Shown piece after piece: positions 19,844-27,111 of a DNA stretch of 29,090 nucleotides. The notes under the pieces were generated by a model that saw only the letters and a list, made by a program, of their open reading frames with translations, made no database searches and was not told where the DNA came from. Numbering within the stretch: position 1 is the first letter of the stretch; each line of letters begins with the position of its first letter. Position numbers and translations under genes: made by a program. Origin of the DNA: a virus; IMG/VR virus record IMGVR_UViG_3300012920_000180, positions 1-29,090 of that record; one strand, written 5' to 3'.

Positions 19844-20118
19844 TATTGGCCTCCTGTCTTTGTTGGCTTTGCTGCCCCTAGCAGTGAGGCATATTCAATC
19901 GGCGCATCAGTTGTTACGCCCTTTGCCGACGTCTTCACGTTGGTTTTTTGATTCGCTTTTTTCTTCGCCTTATCGCCGGTCATCTCTTCTTTGGTCGCAT
20001 CAACCACAGTATTTGGTCGCACCACTGGATCCGGGGTCACCGGCTCAGGAACCGCAACAGGCGGTGGAGGCGGCGGCGGCGGTGGTGGCATCATCACTTT
20101 TGGTTTTAAAAATCCCAT
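19843..20118 (-). CDS. Proline-rich small protein sharing a C-terminal motif with its neighbour
   Basis: 91 aa: MGFLKPKVMM, then ten consecutive prolines (residues 11-20), a PVTPDP linker, a Lys-rich middle (GDKAKKKANQKTNVK) and the end AKGVTTDAPIEYASLLGAAK. The end aligns with SKGVIGDAPTEKATLLGG of the downstream protein (KGV..DAP.E.A.LLG). An MGFL-type start can be seen in phage virion proteins. It lies between terL and the portal, overlapping both neighbours by one base. Function unknown; a structural role is inferred. Confidence 0.65.
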   Translation of the reverse strand: MGFLKPKVMMPPPPPPPPPPVAVPEPVTPDPVVRPNTVVDATKEEMTGDKAKKKANQKTNVKTSAKGVTTDAPIEYASLLGAAKPTKTGGQ

Positions 20119-21398
20119 TATAAACTTACTCCCAGCGGGTTGTAGCTGCTGTCAGCTATGGCCTGTGGTGGCCGGTCATACTGCGTATTTTCTTTAAGAC
20201 CGACCGCGAGGTAGCGAAAAGCATCCGCAGCGTGGCTTGACCAGTCGTGGACAGGCGTGTTCCTAAACGTCCGCAGCCTTTCATTATAAGCCCGGTGATA
20301 TTGCCTGAGCGCTTCGAGGCCTGCCTTGCACTGTTCCGCATCAAACCAGCAGCGTGGTATAAGCATCTGTGCAGCATGTAGTCCGTCCTCGACAGGCAGC
20401 TTGGGAACCACCCTAAAATTTATTCCTAAATCCCAGGCAGTCTCCCGCCTGCTTTTGCCAGAGCCTAATTCTCTGACCTCAATGTCATGCGGCGCATTAT
20501 GTGTGCCGTAAAAATAATCCTTGCCGGAAAGCACCTTCGCGTAATGCGGCAGGCCTTCCCCCCGATTTTCATAAAAATCTATGACATGCACCGCCCGGCC
20601 CACACTTTGCGTAAACCAAATAGCTGTGCTGTCTCCTACACCCAGATCCCACCAGGTATCTACCCGCACACTTGGGTCATAGGGAACTGAACTGATGCGC
20701 CCCTTTTCCTGTATGTCCTGGAGCTCTTTTCCAAATACAGACCCCGGTACATTCGCAACCCAGCTGCACTCAAATTCCTGTTCAAACTGATCTGGCGTCA
20801 TCATCGCCCTGGCAGCGTCTAATTCTTCGCTATCCAGTATGCCGGTCTCACTTGCCCGGTATATCGACGTGTGCCACTCGTCCTGGCCCTCAGCTGCGTT
20901 GTATAAGTCAAAGAAGGCGTTATGCCCCCTGGGTGTACCAATAAACAACGCCCAGCCTTTGCGGTCACTCAGCGCCGGCCTGATAATCTCTGGAAACAAA
21001 CTTTCCGGCATATCGGCCATCTCATCCAGCACAGCACCGTCCAAATAGATGCCCCGCAGGCTGTCAGGGTTCTCAGCACCCAGTAGCTGTATCCTGGCCC
21101 CATTAGGCAAATCAGCTCGCAGCTCTGTCTCATGGAACCGCACCATAGGCACCGCACCAGCAAACTGCTTGAGGTAGTCCCACGCCACAGCCTTAGCCTG
21201 GCGATAGGTCGGCGCTATGTAAGCGAACCTCGGATTGGTCTTGCCGTTTAGCACAGCATCCCGGAGCAAGTGATTAATTGCCATCACCGTTTTGCCCCAG
21301 CGACGGTGACAGACTACGACGCCCCAGCGCTTAGCTTGCAGCTCACCGTGTAGCTGCGCCTGCCCTGGTCTTGGCGTGTAGGGGATTTCAATGTTCAT
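20118..21398 (-). CDS. terL: Terminase large subunit
   Basis: 426 aa from ATG 21398 (MNIEIPYTPRPGQAQLHGEL). The frame runs further upstream to 21521, but family members begin near IPYTPRPxQ and the added segment does not look like protein. ATPase: Walker A-like CHRRWGKT at residues 30-37, adenine-binding PTYRQAK at 63-69, Walker B LDGAVLDE ending at Asp125-Glu126. Nuclease: WWDLGVGDSTAIWF with the metal-binding Asp, HVIDFYENRGEG, and C-terminal HDWSSHAADAFRYLA. This is the motor that cuts and packages DNA into the prohead through the portal. It ends next to the proline-rich gene. It is separated from terS by 248 bases, unusual for a pair normally tightly linked. Confidence 0.95.
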   Translation of the reverse strand: MNIEIPYTPRPGQAQLHGELQAKRWGVVVCHRRWGKTVMAINHLLRDAVLNGKTNPRFAYIAPTYRQAKAVAWDYLKQFAGAVPMVRFHETELRADLPNGARIQLLGAENPDSLRGIYLDGAVLDEMADMPESLFPEIIRPALSDRKGWALFIGTPRGHNAFFDLYNAAEGQDEWHTSIYRASETGILDSEELDAARAMMTPDQFEQEFECSWVANVPGSVFGKELQDIQEKGRISSVPYDPSVRVDTWWDLGVGDSTAIWFTQSVGRAVHVIDFYENRGEGLPHYAKVLSGKDYFYGTHNAPHDIEVRELGSGKSRRETAWDLGINFRVVPKLPVEDGLHAAQMLIPRCWFDAEQCKAGLEALRQYHRAYNERLRTFRNTPVHDWSSHAADAFRYLAVGLKENTQYDRPPQAIADSSYNPLGVSL

Positions 21399-21646
21399 GT
21401 GAGAGACAGGCTCTTGATAGGTTATATATGTGTATAGACTCGGCGGCCGACTTTTGGGGTGGGTGGGGGTACGCCACAGGATTTGCCACCCCCTCGACAG
21501 GCTGCAATCCCGCGCCCACATCCAAGCCAGGCAATGGTCTCAGCCTGGCGTGTGCCAAGCCTGTGCCAAGCTGCAGCATGTTAACCAAAATCTGGTTAAT
21601 CTTGCCTCGTGCGCGCGAGCACTGCCACAGGCAGACAGCACCAGCA
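21399..21646. other. Apparently non-coding, structured gap between terS and terL
   Basis: No convincing gene is seen. It contains an inverted repeat GCCAGGC (21526-21532)/GCCTGGC (21543-21549), a tandem 10-mer TGTGCCAAGC (21551-21560 and 21562-21571), a perfect inverted repeat TTAACC-N7-GGTTAA (21581-21599), a G-rich run on the + strand (GGGGTGGGTGGGGG, 21456-21469) and an AT-rich TATATATGTGTATA element (21423-21436). No good ribosome-binding site or sigma70 promoter for terL is obvious. Candidate roles are a packaging site or a terL leader. Confidence 0.55.
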
Positions 21647-22057
21647 CTACTGAGCAGCTACTTCGGCGTTGCCCCAGCTCAGAGTAATCGTCCCGCTACT
21701 TTGCTTGTTGTCCTCTGCTTTGTCTCGTATTCCGAGAGGCTGCATCTGCCTGATGTGCTTGTCCTTGTGGTCTGCCTCAAGTCTTCTGCGTTGCACTTCA
21801 GCCATTGCTAGCTTCGGGTCGCTTGGCAATGGAGCTTCGACCAGGTCAATAATCTGGTCTCGCATTGCTTCGCACTGCAATGTCCTGGCTACACGATATT
21901 GCGTGTAAGCCTCTTCATTCTCTTGCACCCAGCGCAGCACGGTACGCCATGAAGGCAGCGAACTGTCTTCATTGCAGATCCGCGTCAGGCTTGTGCCTTC
22001 AGCTATCCGCTCGCAGATAATCGTCATCTGCGCTTTGGTTACTCGTGTCTTCGCCAT
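21647..22057 (-). CDS. terS: Terminase small subunit
   Basis: 136 aa. The N-terminal half is a DNA-binding helix-turn-helix (QMTIICERIAEGTSLTRICN, then LPSWRTVLRWVQENEEAYTQ), followed by YRVARTLQCEAMRDQIIDLV and the oligomerisation helix (KLAMAEVQRRRLEADHKDKH). This order is typical of small terminases of alphaproteobacterial phages. TerS recognises the phage packaging site and feeds DNA to TerL. It is the first gene of the structural block, with a promoter and a hairpin in the 195 bases upstream. No clear Shine-Dalgarno precedes the ATG. Confidence 0.9.
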   Translation of the reverse strand: MAKTRVTKAQMTIICERIAEGTSLTRICNEDSSLPSWRTVLRWVQENEEAYTQYRVARTLQCEAMRDQIIDLVEAPLPSDPKLAMAEVQRRRLEADHKDKHIRQMQPLGIRDKAEDNKQSSGTITLSWGNAEVAAQ

Positions 22058-22252: not shown

Positions 22253-22651
22253 TCACAGTCGATAATACAGCCTGACCAGGGCATCTTGATATCTTCGTTT
22301 AACTACCCTGGGGTCGTTCAAGCCCAGTATCCGTGCGAGCTTAGACCATGCCGGGCCACGTTCTCTGAACGCAGCTGAGTGTGCTACAGCCCAGACAAGG
22401 CGCCTGTCGTCGCTATCCATCTTGGTAATGCCAAGCTCAAGCGCTATCTCATACTTGGTTATCTGTGTAGGCGTAGCCTTGATGATAGGCGCCTCGAAGG
22501 CATGGTAGCCATAAGCTGACCATTCCTGTACATACTCAGGCCATGAGCTCATCTTTTGCTTGCGAATGGCAGCTGGCAGCTTCCGCTCGGTCTCAGCTGC
22601 TTCCATGAACAGCTCATCGAGCTCTGTGATGCTTGCCCTAGCGCTGCTCAT
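22253..22651 (-). CDS. DUF6362-like phage protein, possible HTH regulator
   Basis: 132 aa. The central SSWPEYVQEWSAYGYHAFEA and the C-terminal DSDDRRLVWAVAHSAAFRER followed by WSKLARILGLNDPRVVKRRY resemble the DUF6362-type small phage proteins (..WPxxVxE.., ..DRRLVWARA..). Their C-terminal half looks like a helix-turn-helix. It is the last gene before the terS promoter region, so a role in late-gene control or packaging is conceivable but unproven. The start overlaps the previous gene by 14 bases. Confidence 0.65.
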   Translation of the reverse strand: MSSARASITELDELFMEAAETERKLPAAIRKQKMSSWPEYVQEWSAYGYHAFEAPIIKATPTQITKYEIALELGITKMDSDDRRLVWAVAHSAAFRERGPAWSKLARILGLNDPRVVKRRYQDALVRLYYRL

Positions 22652-22958
22652 TCAAACGCCGCTCTTCTTCGCGCAGCCAGTCATACCTGTCTAGCGGCGA
22701 CATACTGCCCACAGCTGTGGATAATTCTCTGAATCTGTCAGCGCTGAGCATGGGCCGGAGCTTCTTAAATACACGCCGGTGAAGCTCGTCGAGCGGCTGT
22801 TGCTTAGCTCTAGCTATAGCTGAGCTATAAGCATAGCTAGTGTTCTTAGCTATGTTATTTATTAGTTTATTTATTTTGGGGTTTGCTGAGCTCTGTGCTG
22901 AGCTTAGCTTATGCTTAGCTTGTGTGCCTACGGCAATTCTATTTTTATTTTCAACCAT
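22638..22958 (-). CDS. Small protein with low-complexity N-terminus overlapping iteron-like DNA
   Basis: 106 aa. Residues 1-52 are low complexity, Ser/Ala/Asn/Lys-rich (KHKLSSAQSSANPKINKLIN). Residues about 55-106 look like a folded helical domain (LDELHRRVFKKLRPMLSADR, ending REEERRLNEQR). The N-terminal part is written by GCTKAGCT repeats around an AT-rich core, which may explain its composition: the DNA may be conserved for another purpose. The ATG lies one base after the stop of the 45-aa gene. No family is recognised. Confidence 0.6.
   Translation of the reverse strand: MVENKNRIAVGTQAKHKLSSAQSSANPKINKLINNIAKNTSYAYSSAIARAKQQPLDELHRRVFKKLRPMLSADRFRELSTAVGSMSPLDRYDWLREEERRLNEQR
22802..22920. 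repeat. Iteron-like GCTKAGCT cluster around an AT-rich core (candidate replication origin)
   Basis: Exact GCTKAGCT octamers occur at 22802, 22819, 22885, 22897, 22902 and 22913, with one near-copy (TCTTAGCT) at 22844: three on the left and four on the right of a 26-bp AT-rich stretch (22852-22877, only two G). Spacings are irregular (5-17 bases within clusters). All read in the same orientation. Repeats flanking an AT-rich melting region is the layout of iteron-type origins. The region is inside a coding frame, so a coding explanation must be excluded. Confidence 0.5.
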
Positions 22959-22959
22959 G

Positions 22960-23097
22960 TCAAGCCCCCCTGCGTAATCCGATAAGCTGCATCACACGCT
23001 GCCACCAGGTAAGCCGGGGTTTTTTCTTCTTTTCCCAGGCTGCTTTTATTTTGCGAGACTGTGCTTCCCGCTGTGCTTTAGTCCATTTTCTTGGCAT
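22960..23097 (-). CDS. 45-aa highly basic protein
   Basis: Reads MPRKWTKAQREAQSRKIKAA, then WEKKKKPRLTWWQRVMQLIG and ends LRRGA. An excellent Shine-Dalgarno (AAGGAGAAGGAAG immediately upstream), a 20-base overlap with the gene before and a single base between its stop and the next ATG support a real gene. The first 26 residues are a lysine/arginine-rich helix and may bind nucleic acid; they resemble short basic segments I associate with NUMOD-like DNA-binding motifs, a weak similarity. The C-terminus is amphipathic with WWQRVMQLIG. Function unknown. Confidence 0.7.
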   Translation of the reverse strand: MPRKWTKAQREAQSRKIKAAWEKKKKPRLTWWQRVMQLIGLRRGA

Positions 23098-24708: not shown

Positions 24709-24895
24709 TAGGCATTACCTCACCCGCACTGATTTGAACAATGCGATCCATAAACAATTCGTTGGGAATCAGCCGGTCATCATGGCCATGCGGTAGGCAC
24801 CAGCGGCGCGACACAGTCGCATGTGATGCACCTACTTGCCTGGCTAATTCGCTGTATGACCAGCCCTTCTTTTTTCTGAAATCATCGAGTGTCAT
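24683..24895 (-). CDS. Cro-like HTH transcriptional regulator
   Basis: 70 aa: LDDFRKKKGWSYSELARQVG, then ASHATVSRRWCLPHGHDDRL, a helix-turn-helix of the lambda-repressor class (ELARQVGASHATVSRRW). The C-terminus is short, with no extra domain, as in Cro proteins. It is divergent from the CI-like repressor at 24985 and is the first gene of the leftward block, i.e. in the cro position of a lambdoid switch. No Shine-Dalgarno is evident before the ATG, so translation may be weak or start near the message end. Confidence 0.82.
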   Translation of the reverse strand: MTLDDFRKKKGWSYSELARQVGASHATVSRRWCLPHGHDDRLIPNELFMDRIVQISAGEVMPNDFYLRRD

Positions 24896-24915
24896 GCGTA
24901 TCGTGTTAACATACC

Positions 24916-24944
24916 TTGACGTATGCCGTCTAGCACATTATCTT
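24916..24944 (+). promoter_or_regulatory. Promoter and operator for the CI-like repressor
   Basis: TTGACG (24916-24921), 17-base spacer, TATCTT (24939-24944). The palindrome GACG-N5-CGTC (24918-24930) overlaps the -35, and an inverted repeat CATAC-N6-GTATG (24910-24925) overlaps it again. An rbs (AAGGTGG, 24972-24978) follows, six bases before ATG 24985. Confidence 0.65.
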
Positions 24945-24965
24945 CTCTTTATGTATTTAACGGAA
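24937..24965 (-). promoter_or_regulatory. Leftward promoter facing the repressor promoter
   Basis: Read leftward: weak -35 TTCCGT (24965-24960), 17-base spacer, good -10 GATAAT (24942-24937). Its -10 overlaps the rightward -10 by four bases (24939-24942), so the two promoters cannot be used together. Transcription would cross the operator at 24918-24930 and enter the Cro-like gene. Confidence 0.45.
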
Positions 24966-24984
24966 ACCGACAAGGTGGTACACT

Positions 24985-25650
24985 ATGTGGATGGCAAATA
25001 ACCTCGAAGTAATGATTGCCAAAGCTGGCATGACAAAAAGAGAAGTGGCGGCCCTCAAAGGTATTACGCCTGAGACCTTGTCGCGGCATGTCCACGGCAA
25101 GATACAGATGACGCTGCAGGACGCCGAGCAATACGGCAAGATCCTTGACTGCTTGCCCCAGGATGTTTTGTTCGCAACAAAGCCTATACCTATTATGGGT
25201 TATGTACACATTACTATGGACAATGTGTTTCAAAGAGAGATTGCAGCTGGCAAAAGAATGGGCAAGGCATACGCAAACGCCTCAAGAACAGACCGTTGCG
25301 CCGCTGTGGTATACAGCGCAGATGAAGGCTATGCCGGCAGATGGTATCATTACAGAAATGCAATAGCTTTGGTGCAGAGAGACCCTATTGAAAAAGAAAA
25401 TATCAGCCCTGACGCTATCATGAACGAATCATTCGTACTGGCCGAAGAGGTGCCAAGCGAAACAGATAACATATGTCACACAAGATTGTTCACTGGCATT
25501 ATCTACCCTGAACCCGGCGGCACATACACAGTGCATACTTTACCCAACGACAAAGTGCGAAAAGGCCTTAAACTTGTATGGGCAACGCCGGTTCTCTCTA
25601 TTACGTTCAGGCCTGACCTTAGAGACATTTCGATAGTTTACGATAAGTGA
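24985..25650 (+). CDS. CI-like repressor with HTH domain
   Basis: 221 aa. Residues about 5-60 are an HTH of the Cro/CI class (LEVMIAKAGMTKREVAALKG, then ITPETLSRHVHGKI). The rest is a C-terminal domain ending YPEPGGTYTVHTLPNDK and WATPVLSITFRPDLRDI. I see no clear Ala-Gly cleavage site or Ser/Lys dyad of LexA/S24 type, so SOS-type autocleavage is not supported. The first ATG (24985) has the best-spaced Shine-Dalgarno. It is divergent from the Cro-like gene and probably binds the GAC-N7-GTC palindrome in its own promoter and in that of the exonuclease operon. I infer a lysogeny or early-gene control role. Confidence 0.8.
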   Translation: MWMANNLEVMIAKAGMTKREVAALKGITPETLSRHVHGKIQMTLQDAEQYGKILDCLPQDVLFATKPIPIMGYVHITMDNVFQREIAAGKRMGKAYANASRTDRCAAVVYSADEGYAGRWYHYRNAIALVQRDPIEKENISPDAIMNESFVLAEEVPSETDNICHTRLFTGIIYPEPGGTYTVHTLPNDKVRKGLKLVWATPVLSITFRPDLRDISIVYDK

Positions 25651-25685: not shown

Positions 25686-25703
25686 TCCCATTCAAGTATG
25701 GGA
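25686..25703 (+). promoter_or_regulatory. Hairpin over the exonuclease ribosome-binding site
   Basis: TCCCAT (25686-25691) pairs perfectly with ATGGGA (25698-25703) across the loop TCAAGT. The right arm contains the upstream ATG (25698) and most of the Shine-Dalgarno GGGAG (25700-25704) used by ATG 25713. Formation of the stem would block initiation. Confidence 0.55.
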
Positions 25704-25712
25704 GAAACTATT

Positions 25713-26654
25713 ATGCTACATGACGTGCCGGACTGGGCATCGCGCCACAATGTGCGTACCCACTCCAATCCTCGCTCGAAAGACAGAGCAAAAAACCTTT
25801 TTGAAAAGACACACATCAGGCCCATAGTCGGTGCGGCCTTCGATGTGTTGCGGGACACTAACGCCTCAGACGCTGACAAGCTGCGCGCCAAAGATATCCT
25901 GCACCGCCTGCACGATAGGCGCAGCTCGGCTAATATGGAAGCCGGCAAGGCCACGCAGACAATCACTGACCTACGCCTGGTCATGGATGAGCGGGGCGAG
26001 ACCCTGACAATGGCTGATGCTACTCTTGCCGGCGTTGAGCAGCTGCACAGCTACAAGCCGAAAGATGAAGACGACGCAGCCCGGAAAGATAAATACCTGG
26101 AAGAGCTGCCCCTGGTCGCAGAACACGCCATAAAAGGCCTGCAAGAGGCTATGGCTAGCGACAACAGGATCCTGGGTGAAATGCAGCTGCTGGGCGCCCT
26201 GCCCGGCACAGCGCTGCCTTACGACACGCGCCCGGACTATGCCAACCGGGGCGACCTCAAAACAAAATGGTCAAAGCGAAACGCTAAAAGCAAATCTGGT
26301 TGGACAGCTGCCGGCTTGCCTAGCTCTCTGACTGGCATGTTCGATATGAACAATGTCTACCAGGTAGCCGGGTTCTGGGCGCTGAACGGCCACCGGCCAC
26401 CGTTCTTGTTGTACGCTAATGCCACCGACTACCGGCTATTTACGCCGGAGAACGCGCCCGAGCTGCGCGACGATTTCCTGCAGGACGTGCTCAACGACAT
26501 TATTCTGCAGTGCAAAACCACCGAAAACATCTTGCGCGCCGCCAGCACCAAAGATGAGCTGCTGGGCCTGGTCGCGCCTGACTGGCAGGCAATCTACTGG
26601 CAGGAACCTGAAACCTACCTGGCTGAGGCCCGGAAAATATGGAGTGTGCAATGA
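25713..26654 (+). CDS. PD-(D/E)XK exonuclease (RecB/Cas4-like)
   Basis: 313 aa from ATG 25713, eight bases after GGGAG; ATG 25698 lies inside the hairpin and lacks its own Shine-Dalgarno. Nuclease core: RPDY with Asp175, GDLKTK with Asp181-x-Lys183, then NVYQVAGFWALNGHRPPFLL, where Gln217 and the aromatics fit motif IV (QxxxY/F), and LLYANATDYRLF. The N-terminal half is helical. Phage exonucleases of this type resect DNA ends for annealing-based recombination; an ERF/Rad52-like candidate is three genes downstream. The Asp to DxK spacing is shorter than in lambda exonuclease, so a Cas4-like variant is likely. The subclass is uncertain. Confidence 0.72.
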   Translation: MLHDVPDWASRHNVRTHSNPRSKDRAKNLFEKTHIRPIVGAAFDVLRDTNASDADKLRAKDILHRLHDRRSSANMEAGKATQTITDLRLVMDERGETLTMADATLAGVEQLHSYKPKDEDDAARKDKYLEELPLVAEHAIKGLQEAMASDNRILGEMQLLGALPGTALPYDTRPDYANRGDLKTKWSKRNAKSKSGWTAAGLPSSLTGMFDMNNVYQVAGFWALNGHRPPFLLYANATDYRLFTPENAPELRDDFLQDVLNDIILQCKTTENILRAASTKDELLGLVAPDWQAIYWQEPETYLAEARKIWSVQ

Positions 26655-26761
26655 CTAAATGGGAATGGATAAAAGAAATTATTGGCGGCTTAGCCTTCGC
26701 TCTGCTCATGGCTGAGATTTACTTTTTATTGTGGGTGCTCGCACCAGAAGGGAGCTGGTAA
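26651..26761 (+). CDS. 36-aa single-pass membrane peptide
   Basis: MTKWEWIKEIIGGLAFALLM followed by AEIYFLLWVLAPEGSW. After a short amphipathic start, about 20 hydrophobic residues (IIGG to VLA) form one membrane span, with the positive residues before it and the acidic residue after it. ATGA overlaps the exonuclease stop, and its own stop overlaps the next ATG (TAATG), so it is embedded in a tightly coupled operon. Function is unknown; holin-like or superinfection-exclusion roles are possible but not shown. Confidence 0.7.
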   Translation: MTKWEWIKEIIGGLAFALLMAEIYFLLWVLAPEGSW

Positions 26762-27111
26762 TGGTACAGCAAGACCTTCTTGAATGGCCTGGCGACCCTG
26801 GCCCTAACGTCCACAAAAACGCCAAAGACACTGAGCTGGCAGCAGCTGAGTTTATCGCACCTAAAGTCACTGGACTGAGGCTACAAGCCCTGCAAAGCCT
26901 CGCCTCAGCCCAGCCCGGCCTGACTGGTAGCCAGGTTGCCGACAGGATGGGCGCTTGGCTGTACAGCGTCAAGCCTCGGCTGACAGAGCTGCAACGCATG
27001 GGCCTGGTCGAAGACAGCGGCGAGCGCGCAAAGAATGAACGTAAACGCCAAGAGGTTGTCTGGAAAATCACCGACGCCGGCATTGAATTTCTGGAGAATA
27101 TGAATGGCTGA
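26761..27111 (+). CDS. Winged-helix DNA-binding protein
   Basis: 116 aa from ATG 26761, with GAAGGGAG upstream and TAATG coupling; the frame is open ten codons further up, inside the membrane-peptide gene. Residues about 40-112 form a winged helix: LQALQSLASAQPGLTGSQVA, DRMGAWLYSVKPRLTELQRM, GLVEDSGERAKNERKRQEVV and WKITDAGIEFLENM, i.e. recognition helix, wing and closing helix, as in MarR-like and replication-associated proteins. It may regulate the recombination operon or bind DNA in replication. It overlaps the next gene by eight bases. Confidence 0.75.
   Translation: MVQQDLLEWPGDPGPNVHKNAKDTELAAAEFIAPKVTGLRLQALQSLASAQPGLTGSQVADRMGAWLYSVKPRLTELQRMGLVEDSGERAKNERKRQEVVWKITDAGIEFLENMNG

Follow-up and report, generated by a model that had tools for sequence, protein, structure and literature searches.

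A conserved repeat element upstream of the terminase genes in a group of uncultured phages, with a possible role in starting replication or packaging

In an uncultured phage known from IMG/VR record IMGVR_UViG_3300012920_000180, a dense cluster of short repeats lies inside an open reading frame (ORF) just upstream of the terminase genes. This arrangement raises two questions: whether the repeats are a property of the encoded protein or of the DNA, and, if of the DNA, which process they serve. The window (the whole stretch of 29,090 nucleotides analysed) belongs to a poorly known and uncultured phage family. The one match in a genome collection, a Flavobacteriales MAG contig, is a host clue that is too slight to name the host.

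The repeat array and its genomic setting

The octamer GCTKAGCT occurs in six exact copies on the plus strand, at positions 22802-22809, 22819-22826, 22885-22892, 22897-22904, 22902-22909 and 22913-22920, as well as in two copies with one mismatch (22831-22838 and 22844-22851). Read in the direction of the late operon, which is on the minus strand, the unit is AGCTMAGC and the iteron-like array covers 22802-22920. The copies are divided by an AT-rich core (22851-22877), with four exact copies on one side and two exact and two near-copies on the other, and the distance from one copy to the next on either side is mostly 11-13 bp, about one helical turn. Within the core is a 26-bp stretch (22851-22876, or 22852-22877) that has two G and no C. 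Among the 29,051 40-mers of the window, the one that surrounds the core ranks first in AT content (17.5% GC versus 51.6%), and the core of the element is also among the most AT-rich sites in several relatives, making it a candidate unwinding element or, if the site is used for packaging, a candidate cleavage region. The description in the first-pass annotation of six exact octamers in a single orientation on both sides of the two-G stretch holds at these coordinates; its near-copy exists, although there are two rather than one.

Across both strands of the whole window there are 12 octamers compared with 4.0 expected, a number reached in 0 of 100 shuffles. The chance rate is therefore about two per strand and not about one as had been estimated. 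Half of the 12 fall within 119 bp and the remaining six are scattered singles, so the octamer is not common outside the array. When the window was scanned for the best-repeated 8-mer in 240-bp windows, the repeat site ranked top; in several complete relatives, the repeats of the element are not the strongest in the genome by the same scan. A separate 60-bp tandem repeat with two copies is present in a gene of the tail region (682-798).

The late operon on the minus strand comprises the genes for the terminase large subunit (TerL; 20118-21521), which is 57% identical to that of HTVC010P-type pelagiphages, the Sf6-type terminase small subunit (TerS; 21647-22057) and DUF6362 (PF19889; 22253-22651), a helix-turn-helix-like protein, followed by the repeat-bearing ORF for a protein of 106 amino acids (22638-22958). 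As reported earlier, the repeats are contained in this last ORF, where the array is read as codons of the N-terminal part. The C-terminal part gives a confident helical domain model whose fold is unassigned and for which no informative structural match was found. Neither DUF6362 nor the 106-aa protein was found in isolate phages in the collection searched, and DUF6362 and the C-terminal domain of the 106-aa protein are each missing from some clades.

Selection on the DNA and replacement of the repeat unit

Related IMG/VR loci were gathered by means of DUF6362, giving 80 loci that are metagenomic and partly redundant, so that per-locus counts do not represent independent events. Most of them have such a cluster in the corresponding position, immediately before DUF6362–TerS–TerL, and the distance to DUF6362 is 90-330 nt in most cases. 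Clades differ in the unit: some have a CTNAG core, with AGCTMAGC, TCTMAGA and GCGCTAAG as versions, and others have GTACTAGC, GTTATAAC, TAATAACT, ACAGTGATT or ACAGTG. In relatives as distant as about 30% identity, repeats still flank an AT-rich core, but the unit is ACAGTGATTACAGTG. Judging from these loci, the repeat 'word' is replaced between lineages. The repeats are non-coding in L059, L064, L068, L069, L076, L077, L081 and L086, which have no gene of the 106-aa type, and they are weak or unclear in L035, L069, L070, L075, L079 and L094. The core between the repeat groups forms a larger palindrome in L064, L075 and L076 (approximately -90 to -50 from DUF6362), as in the example CTTGAAAGCT-TACCATAT-AGCTTTCAAG from the non-coding clade; the CATAT loops are similar and the stems differ.

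It had been proposed that the DNA rather than the protein is under selection, and this proposal is well supported. In the pair of window and L006, 1 of 39 repeat codons carries a synonymous change, versus 15 of 34 C-terminal codons (p=2e-5), a pattern also seen for L024, L028 and L032, so that synonymous sites are frozen only in the repeat part; the comparison draws on a small number of sequences, and recombination confined to the N-terminal part could produce a similar picture of frozen codons. Recombination is unlikely to be the whole cause since the architecture is preserved over distant clades. The layout also persists with other repeat units, including in clades without any such gene, and alignment of the relatives revealed no homologues that keep the amino acids while losing the repeats. 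The array does read in frame as a Ser/Ala/Lys-rich stretch, as would be expected if the repeats were merely low-complexity coding sequence of the 106-aa protein, but the frozen synonymous codons, the occurrence of other units encoding other amino acids at the same place and the existence of non-coding copies make that explanation very improbable. The repeat cluster is a conserved DNA element kept by selection and not a protein feature.

Promoter-like sequences, mini-hairpin and DnaA boxes

Just ahead of the repeats, most loci have the sequence TTGACA–N16-18–TAnAAT followed at once by a mini-hairpin. On the minus strand of the window, the -35-like hexamer TTGACA (22958-22963), which is kept at that place in most relatives, is separated from the -10-like hexamer TAGAAT (22936-22941) by a spacer of 16 nt, compared with 18 in most relatives. 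The hairpin TGCC-GTA-GGCA (22925-22935, minus strand) is immediately 3' of the -10-like hexamer and its arms covary in relatives. Among 19 distinct sequences, whose alignment rows were picked by the promoter pattern and not by the hairpin, all four pairs have changed on both sides; the covariation score is 0.547 versus 0.156 for shuffled alignments (0/500), and versions slid along the alignment score at most 0.20. The loops are mostly GNA with a C-G closing pair, and GNA loops closed by C-G form a class of very stable DNA hairpins, which serves here as a lead. In the distant clade, a similar stem is capped by four-base GNNA loops, and L020 shows one compensatory double change. If the start of transcription is set by the -10-like hexamer, the predicted start site lies inside the hairpin, so a DNA hairpin appears as likely as an RNA one. 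The element has no match in Rfam to a known structured RNA.

The window element has one perfect DnaA box, TTATCCACA, within the 3' half of the 106-aa ORF (22716-22724, minus strand). In the loci, the density of TTATNCACA is 14 times higher in the 450 nt before DUF6362 than elsewhere. When similar loci were filtered out more strictly, leaving 29 divergent element regions, TTATCCACA is present in nine of them versus 0.41 expected, while roughly two of three divergent loci have no DnaA box in the element. In L064-L074 and L076, a box lies on either side of the element, and in one clade such a flanking pair is accompanied by no box elsewhere in the locus. In several clades and in HTVC010P, a box lies 6-10 nt upstream of TTGACA. 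The boxes characterise the family, but their link to the repeats has exceptions: in L079, L081 and L084-L086 the pair flanks the gene for the HTH70 protein and not the repeat element. In L081, a perfect TTATCCACA pair about 330 bp apart (2883 and 3214) surrounds a small HTH gene adjoining the early divergent promoters, and L079 and L084-L086 show the same arrangement. A layout that resembles the element studied here also occurs in HTVC010P itself (L101), where positions 667-740, directly before the TerL operon, contain a perfect DnaA box and, after it, a promoter-like TTGACT sequence and a hairpin.

Replication origin, packaging site or late-operon control

The element would most likely serve in starting replication, or else packaging. 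An origin of the iteron type that relies on the host replisome is our best guess, a tentative one with slightly less than even confidence. Clustered short repeats in the same direction are present far above chance, and an AT-rich element that could unwind is located by them. The AT-rich core and the DnaA boxes thus speak for the part of the first-pass annotation that proposed a replication origin, while repeats that flank the core as in the packaging (pac) sites of P1 and SPP1 speak against it. The layout itself had been likened to that of iteron-controlled origins, a comparison that fails in one respect: iterons are one-sided in those origins and the copies here are on both sides of the core, so the element is not filed as a canonical member of that class. 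GC skew, which had been suggested as a check, is monotonic along the late operon of the window and its turning points track gene strand, so it carries no information on an origin.

A tyrosine integrase was found in 9 of 11 relatives examined (several of 33-37 kb), and searches of the 11 relatives for DnaB_C (DnaB-type helicase) and DNA_pol_A (family-A polymerase) found neither family. With integrases in most relatives and no recognised replisome genes, the phages are probably temperate and rely on the replisome of the host. The cis-acting site upstream of the terminase operon would most likely be an origin of theta replication, at which a protein of the phage, or one directed by it, would bind the repeats, joined by host DnaA where boxes exist. 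Transcription from the promoter in the element may help initiation, the AT-rich core would melt, and host DnaB and the replisome would load, as suggested by the lack of a recognisable replicative helicase or family-A polymerase in the relatives. The repeat unit would change along with the specificity of its binding protein, and in lineages with an ORF across the site, the N-terminus of the protein would be a by-product of the repeats.

Known origins share parts of this arrangement. Lambda ori, which is inside gene O, likewise combines short direct repeats and an AT-rich region in a phage ORF with a promoter upstream, but its iterons are 18 bp long and palindromic; the element has units of 8-9 bp on both sides of the core and is non-coding in some clades, and no O or P homologue was found. 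SPP1 oriL and oriR also have direct repeats and an AT-rich unwinding element, one copy being inside a gene and one in non-coding DNA, but SPP1 encodes an initiator, a helicase loader and a DnaB-type helicase of its own, and no DnaB-type helicase was recognised here. Iterons, an AT-rich unwinding element and DnaA boxes are shared with the origins of iteron plasmids (RK2, P1 oriR, pSC101, R6K), whose iterons measure 17-22 bp and stand to one side of the unwinding element; no Rep protein was recognised in the phages.

It is possible, though less likely, that the element is a pac site where, by analogy with P1 and SPP1, TerS would bind the repeats on both sides and TerL would cut the AT-rich core to start headful packaging. 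This is a serious rival because two-sided repeats and a position before the terminase genes fit a pac site at least as well. P1 pac is 161 bp inside pacA and has seven hexamer repeats. The cut separates a group of four of these hexamers from a group of three, which fits the labels HEX4 and HEX3. In SPP1, pac coincides in part with promoters and with the beginning of the terminase gene, and pacL and pacR flank the cut region pacC. As in both of these sites, short repeats flank a core next to terminase genes and overlap a promoter or gene, and the element precedes DUF6362–TerS–TerL. Unlike them, the window repeats contain no Dam sites and DnaA boxes are present, which packaging leaves unexplained. 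The recognition helix of TerS tracks the repeat class in part, with LPSxRTVLR accompanying CTNAG and LPSKRTIYR accompanying GTACTAGC, but L048/L050 and L094 share the helix of the window (LPSWRTVLRW) without having CTNAG repeats, so that TerS and the repeat unit have not always changed together and TerS as the sole binder is weakened. TerS is moreover about 2.6 kb from the element in one clade. Contig ends, a weak proxy for DNA ends, are not clearly piled up at the element, with 7 of 80 within 350 bp of it, which is close to the neighbouring bins.

Co-variation of repeats and proteins, assessed by a Mantel-type comparison, singles out no binder: TerS, DUF6362 and a 318-aa early protein tie at 0.66-0.69. 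The 318-aa protein (25698-26654) is present in most of the family and weakly also in HTVC106P; it has no profile match in Pfam, PHROGs or PDB, and on visual inspection its invariant GE...PDY..RGDLKT hints at a PD-(D/E)XK nuclease. A winged-helix protein of 126 aa (26731-27111) with a sub-threshold match to Replic_Relax (PF13814) is a further candidate repeat binder; in distant relatives, a homologue is encoded on the opposite strand, a few hundred bp upstream of the repeats. The HTH70 protein is an unlikely binder, its recognition helix being near-constant across clades with different repeats.

That the element is the control region of the late operon, its promoter driving DUF6362–TerS–TerL and the repeats and hairpin being regulator sites, appears less probable still. 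The TTGACA-N16-18-TAnAAT pattern and the DnaA boxes next to it agree with such control; the regulator would perhaps be DUF6362, in the manner of a Q antiterminator, and DnaA would be a co-regulator. The DUF6362 model aligns best with Q21, the Q antiterminator of phage 21 (VIA Z 8.0, rmsd 3.5, 95 residues), and with sigma region 4 (Z 7.8), but a Z of 8 may arise by chance for a helical model, and DUF6362 had no significant sequence match to the Q21 family and no significant Foldseek match. In Q-dependent late promoters, the Q binding element is between the -35 and -10 hexamers and a -10-like pause element is downstream, whereas the repeats here begin downstream of the -10. Furthermore, one clade that lacks DUF6362 keeps the element, with a poor -10 (TACGCT).

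Two other candidates were rejected. An integrase arm or attachment site is not indicated, as attP is usually next to int and the integrase of G004 is about 6 kb from the element. A repressor operator is unlikely, as octamers elsewhere are only scattered singles and none is at the divergent early promoters (24895-24985).

By analogy with SPP1, whose pac overlaps promoters, roles as origin, pac site and late control region would not be exclusive. It is conceivable, if doubtful in its entirety, that temperate phages without recognised replisome genes use a single multi-purpose control site consisting of promoter, DNA mini-hairpin, iterons, unwinding core and DnaA boxes, in which lineages exchange the whole iteron 'word' for another but retain the architecture, and over which an ORF runs in some lineages. 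If so, related phages would keep origins or packaging sites that do not cross-react. Different repeat units at one conserved place amount to a natural experiment on how a site and the specificity of its binder change together. With this element, an uncultured group that is tied by its terminase to the HTVC010P-type pelagiphages, which are very abundant, would gain a first candidate for its replication origin or for the start of its packaging.
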